A stretch of DNA of 64,000 nucleotides, from NCBI GenBank assembly GCA_015057615.1, contig SVEA01000102.1:1-64000 (forward strand), given 5' to 3'. Source of the DNA: Lachnospiraceae bacterium. GTDB taxonomy: Bacteria; Bacillota; Clostridia; Lachnospirales; Lachnospiraceae. Shown piece after piece: positions 189 through 27,231 of the stretch (position 1 is the stretch's first letter; each line of letters starts with the position of its first letter). A model generated the notes under the pieces. That model ran no database searches. It was not told the DNA's origin and saw only the letters and a program-made list of their open reading frames with translations. The position numbers were made by a program, and so were the translations under genes.

Positions 189-217
189 TTGACTTATTAA
201 ATTACGTAAGGTAAGAT
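189..217 (+). promoter_or_regulatory. Putative sigma-A promoter TTGACT-17-TAAGAT
   Basis: -35 TTGACT 189-194, 17-bp spacer, -10 TAAGAT 212-217; followed directly by phased TGA repeats. Confidence 0.55.
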
Positions 218-225
218 ATAGTACA

Positions 226-269
226 ATGAAAAAAAGTGAAAAATAATGAAATTATATGATATACTATGA
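226..269 (+). promoter_or_regulatory. Putative DeoR-family operator, five TGA at 10-bp period
   Basis: TGA at 227, 237, 247, 257, 267; 33-nt core matches 14214-14246 with one mismatch. Confidence 0.65.
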
Positions 270-432
270 TTTTTTATAATAACATCAGCTTAGACCGTAT
301 GCATCCAAGAATTCCATGATGCGCAAGAACTGCCAGGCTAAATTCCATGTTACGTAAAAGGGCGCGCAGAAACGAGGTTAAGGTTGAAAGAATTTTATCC
401 TTTCAACCTTTGAAAGGAGTATGGTTATAAAT

Positions 433-3261
433 ATGAATACAATACATAGTTTACCAATAATTCATACTACCGATTATATTGTATTAGGGGGAGGATTAAA
501 AGAACTGGCAGCGTGTATTCACCTAGCCAGATGCCATAAGAAGGTTCTGCTGTTAACGAAAGAAACATTTTTACTGGAAGATATCTGCGATAGGGCATGG
601 AGCGTTCCGATTCATCCGGACCGTATTAAGAAAAAAGCGGAGGAAGTCTGTTACCGCTATGGTATAGAAATTCTATATCAAGTGACACCTTTGGATATAG
701 TCAGATATGAAAATTATTCTTATTTACGAATTGGTAGCAAAGCGGGAATTTGTGGTATTAAATGCAGTGACATTATCGATGGCTATTCCAATCGAACAAG
801 CATAAACAACAATTGCTTCTACATGCATATCCTAGATGGTGCAAAGATCTGTCAAAAGAAATTAATTCAGGATCCGAAGTTAAGAACCGAATACGAGATT
901 TCTCTTGTTCCCGGAGCTTATGAGGAGCATCACAGCTTATTAGAAATCAGAATAAACGGCAATAGGAATGATAAATCACTGGTATTATGGAAAGAACATT
1001 GCTTAGAAATTTTTCGTTGGCTAAAACAAAATAGAGCCGGATTTGAAAATGCAAAACCGGGTCGCTTTGCCGGAACGATGTATTCGTCTGATTATAATTA
1101 CAAAAGAGAATATAAAAAAGGAATTGAAATGGCAAAATTACCGGAAGGTAATCATAGTAAACCGATAGCCTATTATCCGAGCAAAAAAGAGGTAATCTCT
1201 ATCGAAGAAGAGCCGGTTGCCTATAATGCAGAGCTAAATCTGCGCGGGTATGATTTGATTGCTGCGCCCGATCTATCCATTCGTTCCCTAAAGCATTATG
1301 ATGTTGTGGTTGTGGGCGGCGGAACAGCAGGAGCTATGGCTGCATTGCATGCGGCAAGGAATGGTTTGAAAACGATACTGCTGGAAATGAACCATGAATT
1401 GGGCGGTACGTCTACGGTAGGCGGAGTGAGTACCTATTGGTTTGGGAATCGATACCGGGATGTTGAGGAGATTGATCAAAGGCTGGATGAAATCTATCAA
1501 TACTATTCCATAGAAAGGAAAACCGGTATCTGGAGTAAATATGATGATTGGAATCCCGGCATGAAAAGTATGCTTTTGGAAAAACTATGTTTGAATGCAG
1601 GGGTTACGATCGAATACGATGCAATATCCTGTGCAGTTTTACGTAAGAAAAAGTACGGCAGGGTAACGGGAGTCATAGCTGCCACAGAGGAGGGGCTTTG
1701 CTGCTATAAAGGTAGTTATATCGTAGATGCTACAGGAGATGGGGATATCGCTTCCTTTGCCGGAGCAAAATCTTTCTATGGTTCCGAACGGGATTATGCG
1801 ACTTATTGGGCTTCCTTAGCACAGTATCCTTCACCAGCAAATTATAAGAATAATTTTTCGTCAAGCTTAATTGTTTCGGATCCTTTCGATTATACCAGGT
1901 TTATTCGTATAGCTAGGTTAAGAGGTAATACGATGTATGATCATGGAACCTATGTTAGTCCAAGGGAGTCAAGGCATATCCAAGGGAAACAAGTAATTAA
2001 TCTTAAAGATATCGTTACCTATCGTACGTATGAAGATGGAATTTATACCTGCTTTAGTAATTATGATCCCAAAGGGAAAGTAAATGCTGATCTAGTCTAT
2101 GCAGGCGTACTACCGCCGCAGATAGGGATACAAATTCCTCTTAGAGCATTACTGCCTGTTGGGGAAAACGGTGAAATTATGGGCGGAATAGTAATAGCAG
2201 GAAAAGCAATTTCCTGTACGCATAATGCATTTCCCAGTATTCGAATGCAACCGGATCTTATGCATCAGGGAACGGTTATCGGGATACTATTATCAGAAGC
2301 AATTAAGAATAGGAAAGACCCCCTTGCACTTAATATGGGAAATCTTCGTAGGTTAATAATTGAAACTACCGGGGATCTGCTTACTTTACCAAACCACTCT
2401 ATGAGCCTAAAAGAAGCCGTTTGGTGCGCTTCCTATCATGACAGAACGCAATGGGTTGACCTAGAGTTTACAAAAAAGGTAACGACACCGGAAAGGTCCT
2501 TGCAGATTATGACTGCGGATTCGGAAAAAATTGTACCTTTACTGAGAAAGAGATTTGCAGATTGCCTTAATAAAGAGGAGACGCTTAACGTAAGAAGGCT
2601 TGCAAAATATTTGCTATGGCATGGGGATGCTTTGGGTGTTAAAATAATGATACAATCTATTCTTCATGAACTGAAAAGTACAAAAGGGCTTCCGGAACGA
2701 AAAGGATGTACAACCTGTACCCAATTATTGCCGGACCACGGAGTAATGCCAGAAATGGTTTATGAGTTAAATTTGCTTGCATGGTCTTCGAATCAGGAAA
2801 TAATGGAACCGTTTGCTTTGATCTTGGATAGATTGAAAAATGGGGCGCGGGACTACGTGGATATTAGAAAAGGAATTTACCATTACATAGAAGCTTTTCC
2901 TTATGTCGCTGAACGAACCGGTAATAAAGAATTTATTTCCATGTTGATTACACTGAGCAAATTTGAAGAATTTGAGGAAGTATTACAGAATTATACTTGT
3001 CATTCTTTACTAACAGAAAGGTTACAATATCTTTTATTGTCAATTTATCGAGCAATGGCCAGGTGCGCAGCAGCAGAAGGATACCAAGGTCTGATACAAA
3101 TGTTATCCATCGATTCCCTGCCGGTTTCTGCATCTGCCTGTAAAGAACTGATCACCTTAACAGGAGAAAATTATGGTTTATGTACACAGCATTGGATGCA
3201 GTGGTTGAAGAACAATAGTTGCTGCCTGCTCCCTAAATTAATAAAGGAAAAGATTTGGTAG
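433..3261 (+). CDS. Large FAD-dependent oxidoreductase (FAD_oxidored-like) with two dinucleotide-binding-like motifs
   Basis: ORF 421..3261; GAAAGGAG at 412-419 fits the ATG at 433 better. N-terminal YIVLGGGLKELAACIHLARCHKKVLLLT and internal YDVVVVGGGTAGAMAALHAARNGLKTILLE. Confidence 0.8.
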   Translation: MNTIHSLPIIHTTDYIVLGGGLKELAACIHLARCHKKVLLLTKETFLLEDICDRAWSVPIHPDRIKKKAEEVCYRYGIEILYQVTPLDIVRYENYSYLRIGSKAGICGIKCSDIIDGYSNRTSINNNCFYMHILDGAKICQKKLIQDPKLRTEYEISLVPGAYEEHHSLLEIRINGNRNDKSLVLWKEHCLEIFRWLKQNRAGFENAKPGRFAGTMYSSDYNYKREYKKGIEMAKLPEGNHSKPIAYYPSKKEVISIEEEPVAYNAELNLRGYDLIAAPDLSIRSLKHYDVVVVGGGTAGAMAALHAARNGLKTILLEMNHELGGTSTVGGVSTYWFGNRYRDVEEIDQRLDEIYQYYSIERKTGIWSKYDDWNPGMKSMLLEKLCLNAGVTIEYDAISCAVLRKKKYGRVTGVIAATEEGLCCYKGSYIVDATGDGDIASFAGAKSFYGSERDYATYWASLAQYPSPANYKNNFSSSLIVSDPFDYTRFIRIARLRGNTMYDHGTYVSPRESRHIQGKQVINLKDIVTYRTYEDGIYTCFSNYDPKGKVNADLVYAGVLPPQIGIQIPLRALLPVGENGEIMGGIVIAGKAISCTHNAFPSIRMQPDLMHQGTVIGILLSEAIKNRKDPLALNMGNLRRLIIETTGDLLTLPNHSMSLKEAVWCASYHDRTQWVDLEFTKKVTTPERSLQIMTADSEKIVPLLRKRFADCLNKEETLNVRRLAKYLLWHGDALGVKIMIQSILHELKSTKGLPERKGCTTCTQLLPDHGVMPEMVYELNLLAWSSNQEIMEPFALILDRLKNGARDYVDIRKGIYHYIEAFPYVAERTGNKEFISMLITLSKFEEFEEVLQNYTCHSLLTERLQYLLLSIYRAMARCAAAEGYQGLIQMLSIDSLPVSASACKELITLTGENYGLCTQHWMQWLKNNSCCLLPKLIKEKIW

Positions 3262-3297
3262 CATTTATCATAATAATTATTAAAGGAGGAATCAGAT

Positions 3298-4419
3298 TTG
3301 ATTTTCAAGAACGCAGATGTATTCTACAATAAGGGTTTTCAAAGGTTGGATGTAAAAGTAAAAGGAGATGTTATTACAGAGATAGGTGATAATCTTGAAG
3401 GGGATGAAACCGTTGATTTAAACGGAAAGATGCTTTTACCGGGATTTATTGATTTGCATTCCCACGGACGGGAAGGCATTGATTTTTCAACAGCGGCTCC
3501 GGATGAAATGGCAAAACTGCGTTTGTCTTATGCAGAAATCGGAGTTACTTCCATTTTGGCAACCTCAATGACAATGGAATATGAGACAACCGGAAATATC
3601 ATGAGAAATATTCGTCAGGCAATTGAGGCAAATCATCCGGGAAGTCGTATTCTTGGAATAAACATGGAAGGTCCTTTCTTGGGAGCGGATCGAAAAGGCT
3701 GTCATGACGAGCATTATTTACTACCTCCGGATCAAAAAACCTTTGCGAATTGGGATGCCTTATCGGGTGGTCATGTAAGAATGGTAGATATTGATCCTAA
3801 TTTACCCGGTTCCATGGAATTTATCAAAGAAAATAGTAAGTCAAAGGTGGTATCCATCGCTCATACCAGCGCCACCTATGAGACTGCAAGTGAGGCAGTA
3901 AAAGCAGGAGCTACGCATATTACTCATATATTTAATGCTATGAATGGCCTCCACCATAGGGATCCGGGAATTATTGGTATAGCATGTGATTATCCAGTAA
4001 ATGCGGAAATGATATGTGATGGAATTCATATTCATCCCACAGTGATCCGAATGATGTTTAAATTGATAGGAGACCGTCTTATTATTGTGTCGGATTCCAT
4101 GAGTGCGGCAGGTTTAGGAAACGGGGAATATGAATTGGGCGGTCTGAAAGTGTTTGTAAAGGATAGAAAAGCCACCCTATCCAATGGTACAATTGCCGGT
4201 TCAACAACAAATGTATTTGAAGAAGTTAAGAATGTAATTCGATTTGGTGTTACGAAGGAGAAAGCCATCCTAAGTGCAACATTAATTCCTGCCAAGGCTA
4301 TTCATGCAGAGAAGGAAGTGGGAGATATTGCCGTTGGTAAAAAGGCCGATTTACTAATTGTAACACCGGATTTTACGCTGGAACAAGTATATATCGGCGG
4401 TAAAGTGTTCAGCAGATAA
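3298..4419 (+). CDS. nagA: N-acetylglucosamine-6-phosphate deacetylase (copy 1)
   Basis: TTG start after AAAGGAGG; LPGFIDLHSHG, NMEGPFLG, AHTSATYE, THIFNAMNGLHHRDPG, VSDSMSAAGL motifs. Confidence 0.92.
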   Translation: MIFKNADVFYNKGFQRLDVKVKGDVITEIGDNLEGDETVDLNGKMLLPGFIDLHSHGREGIDFSTAAPDEMAKLRLSYAEIGVTSILATSMTMEYETTGNIMRNIRQAIEANHPGSRILGINMEGPFLGADRKGCHDEHYLLPPDQKTFANWDALSGGHVRMVDIDPNLPGSMEFIKENSKSKVVSIAHTSATYETASEAVKAGATHITHIFNAMNGLHHRDPGIIGIACDYPVNAEMICDGIHIHPTVIRMMFKLIGDRLIIVSDSMSAAGLGNGEYELGGLKVFVKDRKATLSNGTIAGSTTNVFEEVKNVIRFGVTKEKAILSATLIPAKAIHAEKEVGDIAVGKKADLLIVTPDFTLEQVYIGGKVFSR

Positions 4420-4526
4420 ACAGAGCTATAACAGAGCTATCCCTCATAAAATCAGCTTCCTATACGCTTTGGGAATGCGGATGTCGTAGGGTTAATAAAA
4501 AACCATGAATTTATGGGAGGTTACAT

Positions 4527-7061
4527 ATGAATAGAATCTACTTAGACGGAAATGACTGGATGTTTAAAGAGTTTGTCGGATTGGATTGGGTATGGCGTAA
4601 CTCAGAAAAACCGAATACAAAAGATGTTCGTTGGTGGTATAAGGCGACGGTACCGGGATCTGTTTTACATGATCTATGGCAGGCAGGAAAGGTACCGGAT
4701 CCCCATTATGAGCTAAATTCTAAATTGGTGGAGTGGGTACCGGAAAGAACTTGGGTATACAAAAAAAGCTTTTCAGTTCCTGAGAAACTATCCGGCAAAA
4801 AAATAACCCTTTGCTTTGAGGGAATCGATTATTCTGCATCAATTTTCCTGAACGGCAAACCTATGGGAAAGCAGGAAGGAGAGTTTATACCCTGGGAAGT
4901 GGATGTAACGGATATGCTGTTGTATCATGAAGACAATCTTTTGTCCGTGGTAATTGATCCGGCTCCTTTTGAACAGCCCCAGGTTGGTAAGACCTCCTTA
5001 GTTAGAACGCATAAAACACGAATGAACTATTGGTGGGATTTTTGCCCGCGCATGATCCACCAAGGTATCTGGGATTCGGTTTACTTAAAGATAACAGGAC
5101 AGGCAGTACTGCAGGAGGTATATTTAAGTGCCAAGTTAAATACGGATTATACCAATGCTGCTTTGACAGCTGAGGTGGAGGCAGAGGCGGAAGATGGCTG
5201 TGAAATAGTCATGAAGGTACAGGAGCAAACGGTTACAGGTAAAATCCATAGAAGGAAAGCAAAACTAATACTGGCTATGAATCATCCAAAGCTTTGGCAG
5301 CCAAATGGTTATGGAGAGCCTTACCAATATCATGTTACGTTTGTTTTAAAAGATAGAGCAGGAGAGCCTTCGGATAAAAAAGAATTGAAATACGGTATTC
5401 GAGAAATTACGTTTGAGAAAAATGAACGTTGCAATCCGAATGCTACACCATTTGTCCTTAAAGTAAATGGAAGAAAAATATACATCAATGGCTACAATTG
5501 GGTTCCCATCGATGCCATGTATGGCGTTGAACGCCCTGAAAAATTGAATCGACTCATAAAACTAGCCAAAAATGCGCATACCATAATGTTTCGTGTCTGG
5601 GGCGGCGGTCTGATTGAAAAGGATGCATTCTATGAAGCTTGTGCAGAGAATGGTATTTTAATCTGGCAAGAATTTATTCAGTCAAGTTCCGGAATTGATA
5701 ATAAGCCTCCGGAAGATCCGAGTTTTATTCATAGGTTAGCAGCACAGGCGGAAATTATCGTTAAGCGGAAACGAAACCATACTGCATTAGCGATATGGTG
5801 TGGAGGGAATGAACTCTCGGACTGGGAAGGTAACCCGGTGGATAATTCGGACCTATTGATTCGTAAATTAAAGGAAGTAGTGGAACGCCTTGACCCGCAA
5901 CGAAGATGGCTTCCGTCCTCTCCTTCCGGTGGAGTATTTAACAATTCGGTCAAAAATATTATGGAGCAACCGGATATGCTGTGGGATGTTCATGGTCCAT
6001 GGGAACACCAAGGGCTGCAAAAACATTGTGAACTATATAATATGGGGACCTCTTTATTGCATAGTGAATTTGGTGTTGAAGGCATGACCAACAAAAATAC
6101 GCTGGAGAAGACAATAGCAAAAGAACACTTGCTGCCGGCGAGCAAGGAGAATGAAATCTACTTTCACCGAGGTGCATGGTGGACGAATGAGCCATTAGTG
6201 CAAGAGATGTTCGGAGGACTAGATGCTATAGATCAAATCCGAACTGCCAGTCAGTATATGCAATATGAGGGATTAAAATATGCAATTGAAAGTAACCGCC
6301 GAAGAGCATATCAAAATAGCGGATCCTTCCCGTGGCAGTTTAATGAACCTTATCCAAATGCTTATTGCACCTCCAGTCTGGATTATTATGCAAATCCCAA
6401 ACCGGTATATTATGGCGTTTTAAGCTGCTATAGCCCGGTACATGTATCTGCTTCGTTTGCTTCCCCTTCGGTTGCAGAAAAACAAAGATTTACCTCCGAG
6501 GTATTTCTTACAACTTCTCTTTTAACCGATGAAATTAATAAAATTGGTGAATTGAGTCTGCAATGTGAAATAGCCGGAATGGATGGAAAAATCCTCTTTT
6601 TAGATAGGCGAACCTGTACTTTGCCTGAAAATAGCACAAAATTAGTTGTAACAATCGATCAGGATCTTAAGGATATTACATCGGATTTATTTTTATTGCG
6701 TTTGAAGCTGTATCACCCAAATGGCGATACAAATGAATGTATTGCAGAAAATGAATATTTATTTACAAAAGAAAAAGATCTTGGTTCGGTATTTCATATG
6801 GCGGCTCCTGTACTTACTATTCGGCAGCAGAGCAATGGAGTAACGCTATGCAATGCGGGGAATAATGCAGCACTATTCCTGTTCTTGACAGACAAGGGTT
6901 CCCTGCCGCAAAATGATTTTCTTTATTTTGGTCATAATTATTTTTGTTTGCTTCCGGGAGAAGAACGGAACATTCCTATTACCGCAGACAGTGGAAGCAT
7001 TACCGGTAAGACAATATCGATTGAGAATTTTGTTTCAAATAATGATATAACGCTTCGTTAG
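4527..7061 (+). CDS. GH2 beta-mannosidase
   Basis: FRVWGGGLIEKDAFYEACAENGILIWQEF, acid/base region GGNELSDWEG, nucleophile region HSEFGVEGM; GGGAGG RBS. Confidence 0.9.
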   Translation: MNRIYLDGNDWMFKEFVGLDWVWRNSEKPNTKDVRWWYKATVPGSVLHDLWQAGKVPDPHYELNSKLVEWVPERTWVYKKSFSVPEKLSGKKITLCFEGIDYSASIFLNGKPMGKQEGEFIPWEVDVTDMLLYHEDNLLSVVIDPAPFEQPQVGKTSLVRTHKTRMNYWWDFCPRMIHQGIWDSVYLKITGQAVLQEVYLSAKLNTDYTNAALTAEVEAEAEDGCEIVMKVQEQTVTGKIHRRKAKLILAMNHPKLWQPNGYGEPYQYHVTFVLKDRAGEPSDKKELKYGIREITFEKNERCNPNATPFVLKVNGRKIYINGYNWVPIDAMYGVERPEKLNRLIKLAKNAHTIMFRVWGGGLIEKDAFYEACAENGILIWQEFIQSSSGIDNKPPEDPSFIHRLAAQAEIIVKRKRNHTALAIWCGGNELSDWEGNPVDNSDLLIRKLKEVVERLDPQRRWLPSSPSGGVFNNSVKNIMEQPDMLWDVHGPWEHQGLQKHCELYNMGTSLLHSEFGVEGMTNKNTLEKTIAKEHLLPASKENEIYFHRGAWWTNEPLVQEMFGGLDAIDQIRTASQYMQYEGLKYAIESNRRRAYQNSGSFPWQFNEPYPNAYCTSSLDYYANPKPVYYGVLSCYSPVHVSASFASPSVAEKQRFTSEVFLTTSLLTDEINKIGELSLQCEIAGMDGKILFLDRRTCTLPENSTKLVVTIDQDLKDITSDLFLLRLKLYHPNGDTNECIAENEYLFTKEKDLGSVFHMAAPVLTIRQQSNGVTLCNAGNNAALFLFLTDKGSLPQNDFLYFGHNYFCLLPGEERNIPITADSGSITGKTISIENFVSNNDITLR

Positions 7062-7102
7062 TTACCAAAGGCACAGAGAATTTTACAAGATATGGGGGTT
7101 CT

Positions 7103-10100
7103 ATGGAGGAATATAGAAAGAATAATAATCTAATATGGAAAATTGAAGATATGGATCAACTAATGGATACTTTTCGTAATCCAATGCCGTCAAAAGATTT
7201 TAGGGTAAAGGAAAAAATAGTTGAGGGATGGCCTTCCTTTCATGCTTCGGAAGCAGATCCGGATGGAAAATACATGGGATATAATTATTCGATCTATTTT
7301 GAAATGGAGGATATAACGGATTCCTATCTGCATATTGCCTGTATTGCATCCACTCCCCGTATACCGGATCTGAAAATTATGGTGAATGGAGTTTGCGGAA
7401 ATTATTATCCATACCCCGCCCCATCAAAGGATAAGGAAATCAAACCAAGTCATGCTCTGCATGCGGCGATCTATAATCGGGAGGATTCTTATATCTATCT
7501 TCCGGCTTCTTTTTTTCATAAAGGGATGAACAGTATGTCATTTATCGCAGTGGATAAAAAGCCGGTGAAGAAAATAAGGAATGAACAGGCCGTCCTTCGA
7601 TTGGACCGAATGGCAGATGCCTGTGGCTTTCATTACGGAGCATTGGAGTTATATAAGGCAGACGGTAGTCATAAGCAGAACCAATGTGAGATATTTCCTA
7701 GTGTAATCTATGTCAAAGACAATAAGGATAGGCTTGTGGAAAAATGTTTTGCTCGATTTGATAATTTGAATATCAAAAGAGAAAGGGCGGAAGGCTTTAT
7801 CGAGCTGACCTGGAATAATACCGCATTAACCATACCCTATTCTTTTGAAGTTCCTGCTTTTGGCCAGGTGAAATTACCATTTTTACTACCCGATGGGGAA
7901 GGCGCCGTTCACTATAAACTGGAGGGCGATCTTATGGGAAGCGGTGAATTGAAGCGTAAGCGAAAATGGAACGTCTATACAACGCCGCATGCACATACGG
8001 ATATAGGCTATACGCACAGGCAATGGGAAGTGGCGGAAAGAATGTGCCGTAATATTGATACAGCACTTGATTTGTTCCATGGAGATTATGCGGATTCATT
8101 TTCTTACATAATTGATTCCACTTGGCACCTGGAGGAATATTTAAATTCACGAAGCAAGGAACAGAAAGAAAAATTAATTGCAGCGGTTCGGAAAGGAAGC
8201 CTTGGCATACCTTTTAACTATGCGGATTTATTAACTTGGCTGCCCTCCTTGGAAGCACTGATTCATAATGGAGATTATACGGCAAGTGTATTAGAACCCT
8301 ATGGACTTATAGCAGACCGTGCAGATATTGTGGATGTTGCATCCGCAACCGGTTCCTATCCTGCGGTGCTTAAGGGGAGCGGGGTCAAATATTTACTCCA
8401 TGCAGACAACCAGGATCGTGGTCCGTTCCGTTTTAACGGAGGATTGCATAGGCATAGTCCTTTCTGGTGGAAAGCACCGGATGGAAGTAAAATTTTAACC
8501 TGGCTTGCAAGAATGTATTGTGAGTTGAAAAAAGTTTGTGGATCGCCTGCTTCTAAGGAAGCAGCGGAAACCGGGCTTGAGATGTGGCTCATGGATTATG
8601 AAAGAGAAGATTATATTCCGGATGCGGTAATCTTATATGGGCAGGAAGCGGATAATACCGACATGGATACTCGTACAGCTGCTTTTTTGGCAGAATGGGG
8701 CAAAGATGTTGTCTATCCGAAGCTAATACCATCGAACGGAAGTTCTTTTTTTGAATATGTCGAACAGTTTTCCGACCGCTTTAAAGAGTATTCCGGTGAT
8801 GAAGGTGCATACTGGGAAGACGGAGCAGCCTCCAGTGTTCTGGAAACATTTGCTGTAAGGCAAGCAGATGCGGGAATCCGTTGTGCTGAGATATTAGATT
8901 CCCTTGCTATGTTTTACGAGCCTCAGCTACGTTTCCCGTTTGAAAATTACCAGGAAGCATGGAAGCAGGTGCTGTTATATGAGGAGCATACTTGGGGTGC
9001 ATTCCTATCCGGCAGTGATCCAGATTCCTTACTGCAAATGGATCAATGGGCAGTAAAGAGTCATATGGCTTCACAGGCGATTCAGTGGAAAAATCGTTTG
9101 CTAACGCAGGCGGCAACTCGAATTAGCTTAATGTGGAATAATGAATCGAGAGAAATCGTTGTTTATAATCCTTATAGTTTTCCTGTACAGGGGTATGTAA
9201 CGGTCGAATTTGCCAAGGGAGAAACCATATATGATACCAAGGGAATAGAAGCAGGATGGGAAGAAATCAGTAGAACGAAGACACAGGTTGTAGCAAAACT
9301 ATGGGTAGAGCCGATACAATCCTTTTCCTATCGTAGATATTTACTGCGAAAGGAAGCCTTTCATGACCTTAGCGGAAAGTATCAGGAATCCGCAGTACAA
9401 GGTACTGCTTCGATCGAAAATAGGTGGTATACGGTTTCCATTGATACGGAATCCGGAAGCATCACTTCCTTCTATGATAAAGAATTAAATCGTGAATTAT
9501 GTTCCGGCACTTCCTTTGGCAAGGTTCTATATGCTCGCGGCGGGGAGGGAACTACCCTATTAGGAAACCGCCCGGGCTTAAGCCGTGAAGGAGCGGAAAT
9601 GATCCCTTGCTTTTCACCGGTCAAGGCGGTAAGAAAAATATCCGCGGTAGGCAGCAGCATTATCCTCTCGGGTACTGCGGTATTGGGAAATATGGAAGTG
9701 GTTTATACGCTTCCGAATAACGAAAAAAATCTATGCCTGGAGTACCGCTATGAGAAAGACGAAACGGAGGAACTGGAAGCGGTATATGTTGATTTGCCAT
9801 TTCATCTGTCAGAGTGTGCGGATGTACTTTCGGATAGTCAGATCGGATGGGTTGATTGGCAGAAAGATGTATTACCGGGAGCGTGCAGAGAATGGCTTCC
9901 GCTGCAAACATCCATATTAATACGGGATGACCAATGTGATGTTCAAATAGCTTCCCCGGATGCCTTTCTATTTACGGTAGGAACACCGGTGAAGGGCCAA
10001 TGGATTAGTGACCTTGAGACGAGAGGAAATCATATCTATTCCTACGTACTAAATAATTATTGGCGCGTAAATTATAAAGGGAAACAAGGCGGTAAAATAC

Positions 10101-10528
10101 GATTTCGATATTATATAACTTCGGATCGTTCTATTCCGTTTGAGCAGGCATATCGTTTCGGCTGGATCAGAAGGCAGGGCCTTATCGCTCAAAGGATGAG
10201 TTATCAGGAATTTCGAAAAGATGTTCCAAAAGTTTATCAGGATCCCAGGGGAGGCAGTTTATTAAAGGTTCATTCGAACCATATTGTAGTTTCCACAATC
10301 CGAGGATCAAAGGACGGAGAGGGGTTTATCATACGTCTTCAGGAAACCGGTGGATATTCCGGAGATATTGAGATATCTTTTGGCGAAAGAAAACTAGCGC
10401 AGTTATTGAAAACGGATCATCAAGAACGTCCAATTGAGAAAATTCACTTCATTCAGAATCATCTTGCTTCTTTCCATCTAAACCCCTGGGAAGTGGCAAC
10501 CTATAAGATAATACTTAGGAAAGCTTAA
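7103..10528 (+). CDS. Divergent GH38 alpha-mannosidase-like protein (1141 aa)
   Basis: HAHTDIGYTHRQWEVAERMCRNIDTA metal-site motif; VDVASATGSYPAVLKGSGVKYLLHADN aligns with the GH38 VDSFGHTSNLPSIL region. Confidence 0.75.
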   Translation: MEEYRKNNNLIWKIEDMDQLMDTFRNPMPSKDFRVKEKIVEGWPSFHASEADPDGKYMGYNYSIYFEMEDITDSYLHIACIASTPRIPDLKIMVNGVCGNYYPYPAPSKDKEIKPSHALHAAIYNREDSYIYLPASFFHKGMNSMSFIAVDKKPVKKIRNEQAVLRLDRMADACGFHYGALELYKADGSHKQNQCEIFPSVIYVKDNKDRLVEKCFARFDNLNIKRERAEGFIELTWNNTALTIPYSFEVPAFGQVKLPFLLPDGEGAVHYKLEGDLMGSGELKRKRKWNVYTTPHAHTDIGYTHRQWEVAERMCRNIDTALDLFHGDYADSFSYIIDSTWHLEEYLNSRSKEQKEKLIAAVRKGSLGIPFNYADLLTWLPSLEALIHNGDYTASVLEPYGLIADRADIVDVASATGSYPAVLKGSGVKYLLHADNQDRGPFRFNGGLHRHSPFWWKAPDGSKILTWLARMYCELKKVCGSPASKEAAETGLEMWLMDYEREDYIPDAVILYGQEADNTDMDTRTAAFLAEWGKDVVYPKLIPSNGSSFFEYVEQFSDRFKEYSGDEGAYWEDGAASSVLETFAVRQADAGIRCAEILDSLAMFYEPQLRFPFENYQEAWKQVLLYEEHTWGAFLSGSDPDSLLQMDQWAVKSHMASQAIQWKNRLLTQAATRISLMWNNESREIVVYNPYSFPVQGYVTVEFAKGETIYDTKGIEAGWEEISRTKTQVVAKLWVEPIQSFSYRRYLLRKEAFHDLSGKYQESAVQGTASIENRWYTVSIDTESGSITSFYDKELNRELCSGTSFGKVLYARGGEGTTLLGNRPGLSREGAEMIPCFSPVKAVRKISAVGSSIILSGTAVLGNMEVVYTLPNNEKNLCLEYRYEKDETEELEAVYVDLPFHLSECADVLSDSQIGWVDWQKDVLPGACREWLPLQTSILIRDDQCDVQIASPDAFLFTVGTPVKGQWISDLETRGNHIYSYVLNNYWRVNYKGKQGGKIRFRYYITSDRSIPFEQAYRFGWIRRQGLIAQRMSYQEFRKDVPKVYQDPRGGSLLKVHSNHIVVSTIRGSKDGEGFIIRLQETGGYSGDIEISFGERKLAQLLKTDHQERPIEKIHFIQNHLASFHLNPWEVATYKIILRKA

Positions 10529-10549
10529 TCGTCAGCAGCAAAGATTGGA

Positions 10550-11284
10550 TTATGCAAGAATGATATTTGTATATCCCTCCAAGTCCGGGATCGATTTATC
10601 CATAATAATCGTTGTATCTGTCAAAGAGGCAACTTTTATCATGGTTACAACATTATACTTTGATGAATCAATAAGAAAATAAGATTCAGAGGATTTATCC
10701 ATAGCAATACGTTTTATGGTATATTCATTAATATCATGGTTGGTGATTCCGGACTTCTTACTGAATCCATTTGCTCCAAGAAAACATTTATTAAAAAATA
10801 AACCATTCAGTGCTGTTTCCGCTAAAGGTCCAATACAAGAATTCGTTGCTTGTTTTATATTACCTCCGATCATAATACATGGAATTTGGTGTGTAGCTAG
10901 CTGGTTAATATGATAAATTCCATTGGTTATCACAGTTACATTACGGTTAACTAGATAAGGAATCATCTGCAGAGTGGTACTGGATGGATCTAAAAAGATG
11001 ACATCGTTATCTTGAATAAAGGAGCAAGCTTTTAATGCAATTTTGTTTTTTGCTTCCCTATTTAAATTAAGCTTTGCCGAGATACTTAGTTCAATTGATT
11101 TTTTGTTCAGCTGAACACCACCGCCATGTAATAATGTTATTTTACCATACTTTTCCAATTCTCTCAAATCTCTTCTTAAGGTTGAGAAAGATACTTCTAA
11201 ATGTTCTGCTAAAAAGTCCATATAAAGGATATCATTTTCTGTTAATAAATTTATAATCGTTTGTTGCCGAACGGCTGGAATCAT
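10550..11284 (-). CDS. DeoR/GlpR-family transcriptional regulator
   Basis: N-terminal HTH RQQTIINLLTENDILYMDFLAEHLEVSFSTLRRDLRELEKYGKITLLHGGGV and DeoR sensor domain (LDPSSTTLQMIPYL, NGIYHINQLA). Confidence 0.92.
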   Translation of the reverse strand: MIPAVRQQTIINLLTENDILYMDFLAEHLEVSFSTLRRDLRELEKYGKITLLHGGGVQLNKKSIELSISAKLNLNREAKNKIALKACSFIQDNDVIFLDPSSTTLQMIPYLVNRNVTVITNGIYHINQLATHQIPCIMIGGNIKQATNSCIGPLAETALNGLFFNKCFLGANGFSKKSGITNHDINEYTIKRIAMDKSSESYFLIDSSKYNVVTMIKVASLTDTTIIMDKSIPDLEGYTNIILA

Positions 11285-11356
11285 GTTAAAACCCCCTTGT
11301 ATATTTCATTTACACATTTTAGTATATAATAATTTTTCATAATTGTAAACAAAAAA

Positions 11357-11379
11357 TGATTATATGTGAACTTTAATGA
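11357..11379 (+). promoter_or_regulatory. Short phased-TGA site next to the regulator gene
   Basis: TGA at 11357, 11367, 11377, about 70-95 bp upstream of the DeoR start codon. Confidence 0.4.
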
Positions 11380-11598
11380 TAAAATGCGCCATTTTTTAGT
11401 AATACTTGTAGTTTTTTGTTAGATGCAGTATCGTCCAATCCGGTATATCACTGTAACATAAAATGTTATGGAGTATAAGAAATAGTTAGTATTGATTCAA
11501 TTTGATAACTTACTTGGATGAACCGATTTATGCATTTGGTGTTTTTCACAAGGAACGAAAAAAAGCATATGGAAATGTATTAATAGATTATAAAACTA

Positions 11599-11627
11599 TT
11601 GACTTGCCATCTGAAATATTGTATTAT
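11599..11627 (+). promoter_or_regulatory. Putative sigma-A promoter TTGACT-17-TATTAT
   Basis: -35 11599-11604, 17-bp spacer, -10 11622-11627, ahead of the ABC importer. Confidence 0.6.
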
Positions 11628-11636
11628 ATAGCTATA

Positions 11637-11681
11637 TGTGAAAAAAAGTGATACAAAGTGAATTAATATGAATATTTATGA
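11637..11681 (+). promoter_or_regulatory. Putative DeoR-family operator, five TGA at 10-bp period
   Basis: TGA at 11639, 11649, 11659, 11669, 11679; core TGAAAAAAAGTGA shared with 227 and 14215 sites. Confidence 0.65.
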
Positions 11682-11786
11682 TGCATAGATGCAGAAGGGG
11701 GATGGAGCAGACAACAAATCATAGCACAAATTGCATCAGATAGGAGAAGAAAATTTAAAACTCATAGGGTTTAAAGGAGTGTTAAG

Positions 11787-13256
11787 ATGAAAGAAAAAAA
11801 TGACCAAAAAAGCAGTTTGATTTTAATGCCTAAGATAATAACTTTATTATCAATAATTACATTCGCCGTATTGATTATCCCTTATTTTAATCCGGTAAGA
11901 TTTTTACCACAGCTTGGTGACTGGTCCTACCTATATTTCCTTGGTAACTCCATGCAGGTTGATAAACAATTTATAGCGGCTTTCCCGGGTATTCGAGAAT
12001 TTTTTGCAAATAATGCAATTGCTGTTTTTTGCGGGTATTTCATAGGGATATTTACTGTAGCCCAGTTTATTTCGGGATTGTTCATAAGTTCTAAGAAAGC
12101 GAATAAAAGCGCTCGTGGTTTGATGCTGCTGATGATTTTTTCCGCTTTGAACTTTGCTGCTAACCTGATTCTTATTGCAGATATCTGTAGTGCCAATATA
12201 AATGTGGAAAAACTGGGTTATTCGCAATTAGGGATTCGGTATGAGATACCCATAGGCACCGTTGTTTTTATGATGCTGGCACTTACCCAATTCATACTAG
12301 GCAAGATTTACCGCAAAAAATTATTGATTGAAAAAGGTTTATACATAAAGATGACGCATTCGCAAAGAGTGGAAAATGCAAAGGGCTATGCATTTATCGC
12401 CCCCTATATTATTGGTTTTACCTGTTTTACCGCACTTCCGTTGATTTTTTCGTTTTTTAGTTCTTTTACCTATTATAATATTACAGCGGTTCAAAAATGG
12501 TATGGTATAAGAAACTTCACTAATCTTTTCACGAAAGATGAGTATTTCTGGAAGAGCTTATATAACACAGGCTGGTATGTGCTTATCAGTGTTCCTTTGG
12601 CTATCCTATTTGCAATGGCTCTGGCGCTTTTAATGAATATGAAGAGTATAAAGGGACTTCGCTACTTCCGTACGGTGTATTATCTTCCTTCGGTTCTGTC
12701 CGGTGTTGCAGTCTTTCTCTTGTGGCAATGGATTCTTGATCCGACGGCGGGGTTATTAAACAACGGACTTAGCATGCTGGGGATTCAAGGGCCGGCTTGG
12801 CTGTTTGATGCAAAATGGACGAAGCCTTCCTTAGTATTAATGAAATTATGGGGAGTTGGCGGTAATACAATCATTCTTCTTTCGGCACTGCAGTCAGTCC
12901 CTCAGGAATTGTATGATGCCGGCGCTGTCGACGGAGCAACAGGAATGAAAAAGTTTTTACATATTACGTTACCCATGATTTCTCCTACACTTTTCTTTGT
13001 TATAGTAACCGGCGTCAGCGGAGCTTTCCAAGTATTTGATTCTGCTTATATTATGGCAAACGGAACCGGCGGTCCGAATAATTCAATGCTATTTTATAAT
13101 TTGTATCTGTTTAATACGGCAATGAAAGATCAGCAGATGGGATTGGCGAGCGCTATGGCCTGGATATTATTTGCTATCATTATGGTGATTACCGTTATTC
13201 AAATGATTGGCTCCAAAAAATGGGTTTATTATGAAGGAGGCAAGGATAAAAAATGA
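11787..13256 (+). CDS. ABC sugar transporter permease (MalF/UgpA type) with long N-terminal membrane extension
   Basis: AGAVDGATGMKKFLHITLPMISPTLFF (EAA loop); about 190 aa of extra hydrophobic N-terminus before the canonical ENAKGYAFIAPYIIGF. Confidence 0.9.
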   Translation: MKEKNDQKSSLILMPKIITLLSIITFAVLIIPYFNPVRFLPQLGDWSYLYFLGNSMQVDKQFIAAFPGIREFFANNAIAVFCGYFIGIFTVAQFISGLFISSKKANKSARGLMLLMIFSALNFAANLILIADICSANINVEKLGYSQLGIRYEIPIGTVVFMMLALTQFILGKIYRKKLLIEKGLYIKMTHSQRVENAKGYAFIAPYIIGFTCFTALPLIFSFFSSFTYYNITAVQKWYGIRNFTNLFTKDEYFWKSLYNTGWYVLISVPLAILFAMALALLMNMKSIKGLRYFRTVYYLPSVLSGVAVFLLWQWILDPTAGLLNNGLSMLGIQGPAWLFDAKWTKPSLVLMKLWGVGGNTIILLSALQSVPQELYDAGAVDGATGMKKFLHITLPMISPTLFFVIVTGVSGAFQVFDSAYIMANGTGGPNNSMLFYNLYLFNTAMKDQQMGLASAMAWILFAIIMVITVIQMIGSKKWVYYEGGKDKK

Positions 13257-14167
13257 TGGAAGAATCGAAAGTTAAGGTTGAGAATAAAATGAAAAAGAAT
13301 GAGACAAAGAAGAGTAGAAATATAAAATTATCCGAATCAATTCATTTTCGACAAACAGTTACTGGGACAATAGGAACCATCGTCTTACTATTAGGATCCA
13401 TCATAGTACTTTATCCTTTGGCTTGGATGCTCGCAACTGCACTGAAATCAGATGCTGAGGTAATGATTAATCCGTCATTAATACCTTGGAAATTCCATTG
13501 GGAAAACTTTGCGAAGGCATGGAATTCGGCACCTTTTGATATTTATCTAAGGAACACCTTGTTTCTTACGGTATGTAATTTGGTAGGGGTATTGTTATCA
13601 AATACTTTGGTTGCTTATGGATTCGCAAAGATGGAGTTTAAAGGGAAAGATGCGATTTTTATATGTGTACTCGGGACGATGATGATACCAGGAATGGTAA
13701 CGATGATTCCCTCCTATGTATTGTTTTCAAAGATTGGATGGGTAGGCACCTATTTACCTTTAATCGTGCCGGCCTTTACCGGTAGTGCCTATAATATTTT
13801 CCTTTTAAGACAAGCCTTTATGGGTATTAATCAGGCTTATTCCGATGCTGCTAAGATTGAAGGAGCAGGGGAACTAAAGATATTATCCAAAATATATGTA
13901 CCATTGGCACGCCCGGTATTAACAACAATTGCTGTATTCTCCTTTAATGGAACATGGAATGATTATTTTGGACCTATGCTCTATTTAAACGATGAAAAAC
14001 TATATACCTTGCAGTTGGGGCTTCGGACGTTCCGAGGAACAGCGGGTGTGGAATGGCAAAAATTTATGGCAGCTTCGCTTATCGTGTTAATTCCTACGGT
14101 TATTCTTTACTTCTTTATGCAAAAGTATATTATTCAAAGCGTTGCAATCGGTGGGATAAAAGGGTAA
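13253..14167 (+). CDS. ABC sugar transporter permease (MalG/UgpE type)
   Basis: AAKIEGAGELKILSKIYVPLARPVLTTIAVFSFNGTWNDYF; ATGA overlap with the preceding permease. Confidence 0.92.
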   Translation: MMEESKVKVENKMKKNETKKSRNIKLSESIHFRQTVTGTIGTIVLLLGSIIVLYPLAWMLATALKSDAEVMINPSLIPWKFHWENFAKAWNSAPFDIYLRNTLFLTVCNLVGVLLSNTLVAYGFAKMEFKGKDAIFICVLGTMMIPGMVTMIPSYVLFSKIGWVGTYLPLIVPAFTGSAYNIFLLRQAFMGINQAYSDAAKIEGAGELKILSKIYVPLARPVLTTIAVFSFNGTWNDYFGPMLYLNDEKLYTLQLGLRTFRGTAGVEWQKFMAASLIVLIPTVILYFFMQKYIIQSVAIGGIKG

Positions 14168-14204
14168 TAACGAACTTCTTTAAAGGACATTTTTACCATA
14201 CAAG

Positions 14205-14247
14205 TGAAAAATGATGAAAAAAAGTGAAAAATAATGAAAATATATGT
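14205..14247 (+). promoter_or_regulatory. Putative DeoR-family operator upstream of the binding-protein gene
   Basis: TGA at 14205, 14215, 14225, 14235 and TGT at 14245, all 10-bp spaced. Confidence 0.65.
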
Positions 14248-14275
14248 TGACAATATGACACATGAAGTATAAAAT
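14247..14275 (+). promoter_or_regulatory. Strong putative sigma-A promoter TTGACA-17-TAAAAT
   Basis: -35 14247-14252, 17-bp spacer, -10 14270-14275. Confidence 0.7.
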
Positions 14276-14373
14276 ACACTTATAAAGATGAAAGAAAAGG
14301 TAAAGGAATTATACATATTTAACAACTTATGATTCCGCTATCATTTTCGAATTTTAAAAGGAGGATGTATTTC

Positions 14374-15783
14374 ATGAAGAAAATTAAGAGTTTTATCATG
14401 TTCGGCCTTTGCATGGCGCTATTAAGCTTTGCATTGGTTGGATGCAGCAAAGGTAAGAAAGAAACCGATTCGGATAAGGCAGGAATCGATGCTGAACCGA
14501 CACAGGCAGTTAAGGATGAGAAGGAAGAAAGCAAAGAGGAAACCGGAGATAAGAAACCAGTAACATTACGTTTGTGGGCTCATTGGGGATCCGAACAACG
14601 TCGTCCGACGATTGACAAGATTATTCAAAAATTTAATGAAAAATATGCGGATCAGAAGATTACTGCAGAATATGTATATGTACCTTTTGGCGATATTGAG
14701 ACAAAAATGATTGCTTCCGTAACCGCTGGTAACCCAGCCAATGTAGTTATTTCAGCAATCGAAGATACCAATGTTAAAGCAATGCGTAACCAGGCTATGG
14801 ATATTACTGATTATCTATCCGATGGTGTTGCAGAGAAATTCTATGAAAAATATTGGGATATGGTAACCTATGAGGATAGAGTTTATGCAGTTCCGTTTAA
14901 CACAGATACCCGTTTGGTATTCTACAATAAGACCATGTTTAAGGAAGCCGGGATTAATGTAGAGGATATTAAGACCTGGGACGACATGATCAATGTATGT
15001 AAGAAATTGGATGAGAAGTTTATGGGCAAAGGTGACTATATGCTTGCATTCAATCCGGTACTTGGAAACTTTGGATTTGATACCTTAGCAATTAACAATG
15101 GCGGCGGCAACTTTGATGACCCTATGAATCCAAATCTACCTACAGCAAACAGCAAACAAAACATTGAGACACTGGAGCATATGAAGGTTTATGCGGATAT
15201 GTACGGTCAGGATTTAGTACAGCAGGCTATGGCAGCAAATGCCGGCGGAGCACAGGATCTTTTCCTTTCCGGTAAAGTGGCTATGATTGGACAGGTATGT
15301 AACTATATCGCAACGATTGAAAAATATAATGCTGAAGCTAAGGTTGATTATGGCGTATTTGCTTATCCTGCAGGACCTTCCAATCCTACAGGTGAACCGG
15401 CAGCTTGGGGCGGCGGTTTTGTATGTACCGTACCTTATGGAGCTGAAAATCCACAGGAATCTACGTTGTTAGCTGAATTTATGGCAACGGAGGGTGCAGC
15501 TATCTGGGCACAGGAGCAGAAAGACGTTATGTGCAGTACAGAAGCAAATGAAAATCCGGCAATGGCATCTTCTGTAGGCTGGAAAGAAACAATTGCTCTG
15601 ATGGAGAATACGAATGGAACACGCAGACACCCATATGCACCGAATGCAGGACAATTTATGGCGGAAGCAGTTGACTCCATTGTTAAAAACTATACTGCAA
15701 CCGATGTGGAAGCAGCATTGAATACTGCTCAGGAGCAAATTGAAGCTAAGATAGAAGAAGAAAAATTCATCTTTGGTGAATAA
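14374..15783 (+). CDS. ABC sugar-binding lipoprotein (extracellular solute-binding protein family 1)
   Basis: ORF 14329..15783; ATG 14374 follows AAAAGGAGG; signal with lipobox ALVGCSK; SBP features LRLWAHWG, VPFNTDTRLVFYNKTMFKEAG. Confidence 0.92.
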   Translation: MKKIKSFIMFGLCMALLSFALVGCSKGKKETDSDKAGIDAEPTQAVKDEKEESKEETGDKKPVTLRLWAHWGSEQRRPTIDKIIQKFNEKYADQKITAEYVYVPFGDIETKMIASVTAGNPANVVISAIEDTNVKAMRNQAMDITDYLSDGVAEKFYEKYWDMVTYEDRVYAVPFNTDTRLVFYNKTMFKEAGINVEDIKTWDDMINVCKKLDEKFMGKGDYMLAFNPVLGNFGFDTLAINNGGGNFDDPMNPNLPTANSKQNIETLEHMKVYADMYGQDLVQQAMAANAGGAQDLFLSGKVAMIGQVCNYIATIEKYNAEAKVDYGVFAYPAGPSNPTGEPAAWGGGFVCTVPYGAENPQESTLLAEFMATEGAAIWAQEQKDVMCSTEANENPAMASSVGWKETIALMENTNGTRRHPYAPNAGQFMAEAVDSIVKNYTATDVEAALNTAQEQIEAKIEEEKFIFGE

Positions 15784-24075: not shown

Positions 24076-26349
24076 ATGAAACATTTGGCACAAAAACTTA
24101 ATAATGTGCAAAATACAAACGCAGGAATGGATATAAAAATGGTGAAATATAAATTTGAAAAATTATTTACGAAAACCTTTCAAGAACATCAAAAGGATCC
24201 AGTTCCGATCAGGGAAGCTGCCTGCTTAAGAGTACAGTTTCCTGCGATTTTGGAACCGATTCCGGAAGATCTCTATATTGTAGGAGGTGCAAAATACCAT
24301 CCGATCGGCTTCTCTCCGAAGGATGCGGAGGATTTTGGATACTACTGCAGAACCAAAGAGCTGGAACAGCTTAGGAAGGAGGAAACCGATCCAGAGGAAA
24401 GAAAAGAGCTGGAACTGCTTCTGGAATTTTGGAGGGAGAATCAAAGCCGGTATAAGACGAGAAAGGCATATCCAAAGGAAGTTAAAAAAAGGCTTGCCAG
24501 TGATGATTTAAACGATATTTATCCGGCCTATCCCCTCTATCGTATGACCGGCTGCATCATTGACTATGATAAACTGTTACAACTTGGGATACCCGGAATT
24601 AAGAAAGAAATATCCGAATATGCCAAACAGGAAAACAATCCCCTCTACGGCGCAATGCTGGAAGCCTTAGAAATCTTAAAGGATAGCTTGCAATTCTATG
24701 CAGATCAATGTGAGGAGAAGAAAGCATACGTTTCAAAGGAAAGAGCATCCCAGCTGCAGGAAATGAGGGAAAATCTTATCTTTCTTAAAAATAATGCTCC
24801 TGAAACATTTCATCAGGCAGCACAGCTTGCATGGCTTTATTCCATCCTTGCGCATACCCTGGATTATGGCCGGATGGATGTATATTTAGGAGATTTTCTG
24901 GAGAGGGATCAAAAGAAAGGAATTCTTAGCGAGGAGAAAGCCTTCCAAATTATTCAATCGATTTGGAGGCTCATCGCAGATAAAAAAACGGTGGTACATG
25001 GAAGAGTTATGCTTGGAGGAAGGGATAGAAGAAACCCGAAGGCTGCCGATCATTTTGCAATCCTTGCTATGGAAGCTTCGAAGGCTCAGCGCCGTATGGA
25101 ACCGCAGCTGTCCTTGCGCTGCTATAGGGGAATGAGCGAGGAGGTATTGAAAAAGGCAATGGAAACTATCGCTGACGGAACTACCTTCCCAATTCTATAC
25201 AACGATGATTGCAATATACCCAATGTTCAAAAGGCATTTTCTGTATCTGAGGAAGAAGCACAGGAGTATTATCCCTATGGTTGCGGAGAGTATGTTCTTG
25301 GACATCGTAGTTTTGGGTCTGCAAATGGCGTTATTAATCTGGCACGGATACTGGAACTGACATTGTATAATGGCTGTACTGCTTCTGGAAAACGGATCGG
25401 TCTACCAACCGGTGAACCGGAAAAATTTCATTCCTTTGATGAGCTTTATGCAGCTTATCTTAAGCAGCTGGAATACTATATACAGCCGCTGGCAATCCAG
25501 GAGAAGATCGAATATGAAATTGCCGGGAGTACCGGCAGCTTCCTATACTTAAGTATGCTATATGATGACTGCATCAAACGGGGAAAATCTATTTTTGACG
25601 GAGGAATCCGCTATCTGGGAGGTACGCTTGAGACGTATGGAAATATTACAACCTCAGATAGTTTAACCGCAATCAATGAAATGGTATATCAGAAAAAACA
25701 GCTATCCATGAAGCAGCTAAAAGAAATTTTAAAGCAAAATTATCAAGGGAATGAAGCGGTTAGACGTACCCTAATACAGGTAGTAAAATATGGAAACGAT
25801 AATAAAAAGGCAGATAACATGGCAGTAAGGCTGCATCAGGATCTAGGTAGGCTGGTATCCGAGCAAGCGGACAAGGTGGGACTAACAAGCTATCTTCCGG
25901 TGCTTATTAATAATGATCATAATGTCATCTTAGGACGAACTACCGGAGCTACACCGGATGGAAGAGTCGCGGGCAGTCCACTAACCAATGCGAATAGTCC
26001 AAGTGGAGGCAGTGATAAAAATGGTATCACAGCATTACTTAATTCCATGACCAGATTAAATGGAGATAATAATGCTGGAATGGTACAGAATATTCGGCTG
26101 GGAAAAGGAATGTTCCTTGAGTACCTGGATAAAACGGAGATTCTGATTAAAACCTATTTTCAGAAGGGCGGTACTCAGCTGATGATTACCGTTGCAAGTA
26201 CGAAAGACCTAAAGGATGCTATGGTTCATCCGGAGCTTTATTCCAATCTGTTTGTACGTGTTGGTGGGTATAGCGGTCGTTTCATTAGTCTCCCAAGGGA
26301 TGTTCAATTGGATATTCTTCGTCGAACCACGTATGAAGGGGAGGAATGA
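24076..26349 (+). CDS. Glycyl radical enzyme (PFL/diol-dehydratase superfamily), function unassigned
   Basis: Active-site Cys in YPYGCGEYVLG (Cys codon 25282-25284); C-terminal glycyl loop VRVGGYSGRFISLPRDVQLDILRRT (Gly codon 26266-26268). Start uncertain (24076 or 24130). Confidence 0.88.
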   Translation: MKHLAQKLNNVQNTNAGMDIKMVKYKFEKLFTKTFQEHQKDPVPIREAACLRVQFPAILEPIPEDLYIVGGAKYHPIGFSPKDAEDFGYYCRTKELEQLRKEETDPEERKELELLLEFWRENQSRYKTRKAYPKEVKKRLASDDLNDIYPAYPLYRMTGCIIDYDKLLQLGIPGIKKEISEYAKQENNPLYGAMLEALEILKDSLQFYADQCEEKKAYVSKERASQLQEMRENLIFLKNNAPETFHQAAQLAWLYSILAHTLDYGRMDVYLGDFLERDQKKGILSEEKAFQIIQSIWRLIADKKTVVHGRVMLGGRDRRNPKAADHFAILAMEASKAQRRMEPQLSLRCYRGMSEEVLKKAMETIADGTTFPILYNDDCNIPNVQKAFSVSEEEAQEYYPYGCGEYVLGHRSFGSANGVINLARILELTLYNGCTASGKRIGLPTGEPEKFHSFDELYAAYLKQLEYYIQPLAIQEKIEYEIAGSTGSFLYLSMLYDDCIKRGKSIFDGGIRYLGGTLETYGNITTSDSLTAINEMVYQKKQLSMKQLKEILKQNYQGNEAVRRTLIQVVKYGNDNKKADNMAVRLHQDLGRLVSEQADKVGLTSYLPVLINNDHNVILGRTTGATPDGRVAGSPLTNANSPSGGSDKNGITALLNSMTRLNGDNNAGMVQNIRLGKGMFLEYLDKTEILIKTYFQKGGTQLMITVASTKDLKDAMVHPELYSNLFVRVGGYSGRFISLPRDVQLDILRRTTYEGEE

Positions 26350-26370
26350 ATAGAAATCGATAGGCTTCTG

Positions 26371-26430
26371 TCATATGAAAAACAGATGGGTCATATGAAA
26401 AACAAACGTGTCATATGAAAAACAGATGGA
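26371..26430. repeat. Three tandem 20-bp repeats TCATATGAAAAACARAYGKG
   Basis: Units start at 26371, 26391, 26411 with exact 20-bp period; each holds the palindrome TCATATGA. Confidence 0.9.
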
Positions 26431-26490
26431 GCGAGATACCAAAAATAATCAAATTATGTCACATATTATTCAAAAAGTGTCATTTAAAGC

Positions 26491-26565: not shown

Positions 26566-27231
26566 ATGAAAATAAAAAAACTGGTCGTCATTCATACTTC
26601 ACCTGCAACCGTAGAGAGTTTAACTTCCTTAATTAAGCAGGAAATCGGTAAGGTGGAAGTAGTTAATATTTTAGATGATTCCATATTAAAGGATTTGATT
26701 CAAAAGAATCATGTGGAATTTGTAGAAGAACGTTGGCTGCAATATGCAACCATAGCAGCTTCGATGGGGGCAGATGCCGTATTGAGCGCATGCTCTTCCG
26801 TAGGAGAAATTGCAGAAAAAGCGAATGCGAAACTGGACATTCCAGTGTATCGAATCGATGAAGCCATGGCAGAAAAAGCAGTACAGATGGGGAATACAAT
26901 CAGTGTCTTTGCAACCCTATCTTCTACTTTAGACCCTACTGTCAATCTAATAAAAAGAAAAGCAGAGAGTTTAGGGAAGGACTGTACACTTCATACCGTT
27001 TTAGTGCCGGATGCATATGAAGAGCTTATGCGGGGAAATCGTTCTCTGCATAATAAAAAAATCCAAGAAACGGTTCTCAAATATGCAGCGGATTCCGATG
27101 TCCTGGTTCTGGCGCAGGCTTCTATGGCTTTAGCAGTAGATGAGTTAAAGGGAATCGATATGGATAAGGTGCTGACAAGTCCCCGCCTTGGAGTCGCAAA
27201 ATTGAAAAAAGAGTTTTTCCATATTTCATGA
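26566..27231 (+). CDS. Aspartate/glutamate racemase superfamily protein
   Basis: VLSACSSVGEIAEKA (N-terminal Cys) and VLVLAQASMALAVDEL in place of the second-Cys region. Confidence 0.8.
   Translation: MKIKKLVVIHTSPATVESLTSLIKQEIGKVEVVNILDDSILKDLIQKNHVEFVEERWLQYATIAASMGADAVLSACSSVGEIAEKANAKLDIPVYRIDEAMAEKAVQMGNTISVFATLSSTLDPTVNLIKRKAESLGKDCTLHTVLVPDAYEELMRGNRSLHNKKIQETVLKYAADSDVLVLAQASMALAVDELKGIDMDKVLTSPRLGVAKLKKEFFHIS

Follow-up and report, generated by a model that had tools for sequence, protein, structure and literature searches.

The window analysed in this study is a stretch of 64,000 nt from the genome of a Lachnospiraceae bacterium (contig SVEA01000102.1, here C83) and begins with a glycan locus. 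The first predicted target operon (421..10528, plus strand) encodes an FAD oxidoreductase, a NagA-type deacetylase, a GH2 and a GH38-like enzyme. It is followed by the regulatory gene deoR1 (10550..11284, minus strand), a second target operon encoding two ABC sugar permeases (11787..14167, plus strand) and a third target, the gene of an extracellular solute-binding protein (SBP; 14329..15783, plus strand). The presence of NagA, GH2 and several GH38 enzymes in the locus suggests that the imported glycan may contain mannose or GlcNAc. The first ABC permease (11787-13256) is extended at its N-terminus by about 195 aa; the extension aligns in Herbinix and in Clostridiales AS05 but not in most gut relatives, whose match begins at residue 174-206. 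Further downstream, a pyruvate-formate-lyase-like glycyl radical enzyme (24076-26349) is encoded within a cluster of glycosidase and sugar kinase genes.

The product of deoR1 (244 aa) belongs to the DeoR family and consists of an HTH_DeoR domain (PF08220, 45.5 bits at a cut-off of 21) and a DeoRC sensor domain (PF00455, 156.1 bits at a cut-off of 31.8). Its subfamily reaches no NCBIfam cut-off, and a PDB sequence search with the subfamily found a single entry, 7l6l, which covers the sensor part only. The original prediction took this gene to be the only regulator of the locus, which has to be corrected. A paralogue with 77% identity, deoR2, is located just outside the window on contig C2 of the same genome (about 11749-12492, minus strand; the protein match spans 11761-12492), divergent to the first operon. 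The end of C2 and the start of C83 have 13 bases in common, and in the near-identical genome UBA10550 (G007; also locus L050) deoR2 lies directly upstream of the first repeat array (site A, see below) in divergent orientation. From this, the distance between deoR2 and site A is about 0.47 kb, with deoR2 on the upstream side, by a join of two draft contigs that rests on the 13-base overlap and the gene order in one relative. The window begins at the contig edge (positions 1-140), and the matching place in UBA10550 is filled by a stretch of N; the intergenic region between deoR2 and site A thus appears to hold an element that is hard to assemble. In UBA10550 this region is flanked by the inverted sequences GTTACTGTTCACA/TGTGAACAGTAAC. 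A genome search for the DeoR HTH gave high scores for deoR1 and deoR2 only (48 and 46 bits), with four other genes at 22-35 bits.

Tandem arrays of TGA units in 10-bp steps lie at the promoters of these genes. Site A (226..269, plus strand), in front of the first operon, contains five RTGA units and starts 8 bp past the -10 box of promoter A (189..217, TTGACT-17-TAAGAT, boxes at 189 and 212). Site B (11638..11681, plus strand), in front of the permease operon, also has five units and starts 10 bp past the -10 box of promoter B (11599..11627, TTGACT-17-TATTAT, boxes at 11599 and 11622), which is kept together with the array in two relatives. Site C (14204..14247, plus strand) consists of four RTGA units and one ATGT and is located immediately 5' of the -35 box of promoter C (14247..14275, TTGACA at 14247, 17-bp spacer, TAAAAT at 14270), the predicted promoter of the SBP gene at 14329. 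All promoters named here were called by a -35/-10 consensus scan. The sequence agrees with what had been described before: five TGA in exact 10-bp steps at 227-269 and 11639-11681, four TGA and a TGT at 14205-14247, a single base difference between the 33-nt cores starting at 226 and 14214, and two -10 boxes with the first TGA beginning 10 bp (A) and 12 bp (B) past their last base. A fourth array of three RTGA units, which had escaped the earlier description, abuts the deoR1 promoter (site D, 11356..11379, plus strand). Upstream of this divergent promoter (11321..11349, minus strand, TTTACA-17-TATACT), it is separated from the -35 box by 6 bp and has the reverse orientation. Each of the arrays A and B is paired with a divergent deoR gene of its own, and array C is located one operon further on. 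In all 15 units of sites A-C the base before the TGA or TGT is a purine, and the consensus of the unit is RTGAAAAWWW with TGA as its core.

A further candidate, site E (26449..26483, minus strand), has four TGA in steps of 10, 11 and 10 bp and lies 7 bp upstream of a TTGAAT-17-TAAAAT promoter (26491). Its conservation was sought in two relatives and was not found; the gene order differs in both of them, and site E therefore remains a candidate only. Beside it, at 26369-26429, the intergenic sequence that precedes the operon at 26566 contains a unit (TGTCATATGAAAAACAGATGG) repeated three times in tandem with 20-bp spacing. With its two-turn spacing, this repeat looks like the operator of another regulator. 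A separate element was seen in the leader of the first operon, where a 14-bp stem with a 3-nt loop (AAGGTTGAAAGAAT/ATCCTTTCAACCTT, 380-410) ends just 5' of the ribosome-binding site of the gene at 421. It is possibly a leader hairpin that acts on translation or mRNA stability.

The arrays are exceptional in the window and in the genome. The pattern (TGAN7)x4 with at most one mismatch has 7 matches in the window vs 0.66 expected (100 shuffles, largest 3). A pattern search of the whole draft genome (4.07 Mb, 215 contigs) returned 5 exact matches, all of them inside arrays A-C and all on one strand; the opposite strand and a reversed control pattern gave 0. Matches with one mismatch outside the arrays are dispersed across many contigs. 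Genome-wide, the exact four-unit pattern is confined to these three arrays.

For the comparative analysis, a scan of genome contigs yielded 18 loci of the subfamily with 49-100% identity in Herbinix, Eisenbergiella, Robinsoniella and uncultured relatives. The genes around the subfamily deoR usually encode the same ABC importer. Within 450 bp upstream of deoR, in the 16 loci used for counting, at least three TGA at 10-bp steps were found in 13 of 16 regions and at least four in 7 of 16, while shuffled upstream regions had a run in 0.15 loci on average (maximum 3 of the 16 loci). No strict TGA run was found in 3 of the 16 loci, some of which mix 10- and 11-bp spacing. Among the spacings from 4 to 23, 10 bp stands alone with 17 runs; none of the others has more than 4. 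Runs at spacing 15 were set aside; they mostly reflect coding sequence inside deoR. Like the units of the window, those of the subfamily are preceded by a purine (60 of 70 units) and followed by A/T-rich bases. In several gut species another array, whose steps are a mixture of 10 and 11 bp, is located on the opposite strand and nearer to the SBP gene. Orthologues of site B were found in G030 and Herbinix, and site C is conserved in Herbinix and AS05; in the alignments of both sites the array and the promoter are retained while the bases between them have changed. Herbinix also has an array similar to site D. In G030, a genome that is 81% complete, site B is present but a close DeoR was sought and not found.

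According to the promoter scan, most arrays fall into two placement classes. In the first, the array begins 8-11 bp past the -10 box; its members are site A, site B and the site B orthologues of G030 and Herbinix, together with the deoR promoter of AS05. In the second, the array ends 3-8 bp before the -35 box, when units are counted up to one that overlaps this box (site C with its Herbinix and AS05 orthologues, and loci L068, L076 and L078). Since site C precedes the promoter that it belongs to, the placement downstream of a -10 box, ideal for repression in the original description, holds for sites A and B only. Site D and its Herbinix counterpart are reversed and lie on the outer side of the deoR -35 box, at a distance of 5-6 bp. 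In more distant relatives, part of the arrays have no clear promoter call.

Independent evidence was obtained from a pattern scan that is blind to genes. The search for (RTGAN6)x4 in 397 genomes of the family gave 30 readable loci. A DeoR-family gene adjoins the array in 8 of them, which we judge to be far above chance if a 3-Mb genome is assumed to hold a handful of DeoR genes. At 3 further loci the array is located directly before fruK (1-phosphofructokinase), and fruK also follows four of the DeoR genes checked among the 8. These loci represent the FruR branch, which is separate from the DeoR branch of the window; a member from the same genus (L061) has 30% identity to the DeoR of the window. 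The FruR arrays contain up to eight TGA, often with a further TGA offset by half a turn (ATGATTGA). At L086, L087, L088, L094, L109 and other FruR loci, TGA arrays of 4-8 units overlap the -35 region. Minisatellites with 10-bp units and no deoR gene (G031:C16, G006:C111, L089, L111 and L112) were set aside as unrelated simple repeats. They are perfect or near-perfect in L053 (G031:C16, about 7851) and L054 (G006:C111, about 7428-7530), with units in RTGA phase (GTGATACAAG x13 and RTGATATAGA). A close DeoR homologue was sought in these two minisatellite genomes, G031 and G006, and was not found.

Taken together, the arrays are very probably the docking sites of the deoR1 and deoR2 products, as predicted from sequence comparison. 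The link to DeoR that had been proposed is strongly supported by this comparative evidence, i.e., by the arrays at 13 of 16 subfamily loci, by the two high-scoring HTH genes of the genome, both of which are array neighbours, and by the FruR arrays. We assign a probability of about 0.83 to the reading that the arrays are multi-unit operators bound by a DeoR oligomer, which would repress until a sugar or sugar phosphate releases it. Repression is the usual role of DeoR-family regulators. Each 10-bp unit may be read by one winged-helix domain. Since the units lie one helical turn apart, several domains of one oligomer, or side-by-side dimers, could align head-to-tail on one face of the DNA. When the sugar signal is absent, the bound DeoR would occlude the promoter. 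At sites A and B the array is located at about the transcription start, where initiation or escape could be blocked; at sites C and D it would lie against the -35 box. The DeoRC domain would bind a sugar or sugar phosphate, as is expected from this type of sensor, and DeoR would leave the DNA. This inducer probably derives from the imported glycan. Both paralogues may use the same sites. DeoR1 and DeoR2 have 17 differences in their first 60 residues, and common sites are therefore not certain.

The two placement classes could also be explained by a DeoR protein with two modes, which represses at sites A and B but acts as an activator where the array directly precedes the -35 box (site C, L078, L076 and AS05) and where it could contact RNA polymerase. 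The classes are discrete and conserved, and the upstream class is found repeatedly at the SBP promoter. Nevertheless we regard such a dual role as unlikely. Another DeoR-family protein, FruR of S. aureus, is described as a repressor and has a footprint from -85 to -40 (PMC10765703), just upstream of the -35 box like site C, so that repression from this position has a precedent. The -35 and -10 boxes of the site C promoters are near consensus, and there is no obvious need for an activator. The stricter version, in which DeoR polymerises head-to-tail on the TGA arrays with one winged helix per helical turn, as a repressor where the array starts at the transcription start (A, B) and as an activator or RNA polymerase partner where it ends 3-8 bp before the -35 box (C), seems to us more doubtful still. 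If true, it would describe a position-switching DeoR, and the number of units and their position would decide whether one type of array has opposite or graded effects.

Proteins of the OmpR/PhoB type bind direct repeats of 10-11 bp, and AraC-type activators use direct repeats as well. The arrays might accordingly be read by an unlinked factor, e.g., a response regulator of the OmpR type or an activator of the AraC type. We consider this very improbable, as neither a response regulator nor an AraC gene was found when the main ORFs of the window were scanned with Pfam, and the arrays track the deoR gene across genomes, including the second DeoR branch. Phased A-tracts that bend the DNA, with no recognition sequence for a protein, have even less in their favour. 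Some units do contain tracts of A5-A7, and AAA shows a mild excess at a phasing of 10 bp (z 4.9). Among all trinucleotides, however, TGA/TCA is at the top at this phasing (17 observed vs 0.22 expected, z 22; next independent trinucleotide z 7), site B has a single A-tract of at least 4, and the five-unit Herbinix array L068 has none on that strand. It is scarcely credible that the arrays are elements of the 5' leader RNA whose UGA repeats are counted by an RNA-binding protein; sites A and B are indeed located within the predicted leader, but site C and its orthologues precede the promoter, and site D and other arrays are reversed, so that these arrays cannot work through that RNA. Random occurrence, or the noise of simple tandem repeats in AT-rich DNA, for which the unrelated RTGA minisatellites of G031 and G006 might be quoted, is contradicted by the shuffle, spacing, reversed-pattern and word controls and by the conservation, and can practically be dismissed.

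Operators of this type have precedents in the DeoR family. In B. subtilis, the DeoR-family protein IolR uses tandem direct repeats of 11-mers. The operator type is similar to ours, whereas the repeat length and the consensus differ: a strict 11-bp repeat was not found in the window, where the step is 10 bp, and mixtures of 10 and 11 bp occur only in some relatives. RhaR of Chloroflexus aurantiacus bound four tandem TCGAAA within 38 bp in EMSA and was released by L-rhamnulose, and DeoR-family RhaR motifs are imperfect direct repeats with a periodicity of 10-11 bp (PMC3870299). Four short direct repeats, a core [T/C]GAAA that resembles RTGAAA and a local sugar regulon are shared with our arrays, in contrast to the other core sequence, the other sugar and the distant phylum. 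FruR of L. lactis recognizes four adjacent 10-bp repeats which overlap the -35 box (Barriere et al. 2005, as cited in PMC10765703). According to the citing paper, S. aureus lacks the two FruR motifs that had been described earlier (PMC10765703). As far as the L. lactis system is described in that paper, it shares with the window a DeoR-family regulator beside its target and 10-bp tandem direct repeats at the promoter, and the TGA arrays of the Lachnospiraceae FruR loci have the same 10-bp period. It differs, on the same account, from the window, where glycan import and glycosidases take the place of PTS and fruK and where one locus has three arrays of 4-5 units, two placement classes and two paralogous regulators. 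Linkage to fruK or fruA was not found in the window or at most subfamily loci, which adjoin ABC importer genes. With at least three short direct repeats of 10-11-bp period, located at the promoter of an operon beside deoR and conserved among orthologues, the arrays resemble FruR/RhaR-type operators. The comparison with the FruR branch suggests that phased TGA/TCGAAA direct repeats, and not palindromes, are a recurrent mode in which DeoR proteins read DNA, and arrays of such regularity should be good substrates for a structure of DNA-bound DeoR. A probable operator and a small regulon, tied to a glycan importer and glycosidases, can now be assigned to a DeoR subfamily of the Lachnospiraceae. 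Published DeoR-family operators are tandem repeats of 10-11 bp, and the arrangement itself is therefore not new; to this established operator class our analysis adds a new subfamily with its regulon, the RTGA consensus, arrays of up to five units and two conserved placements.
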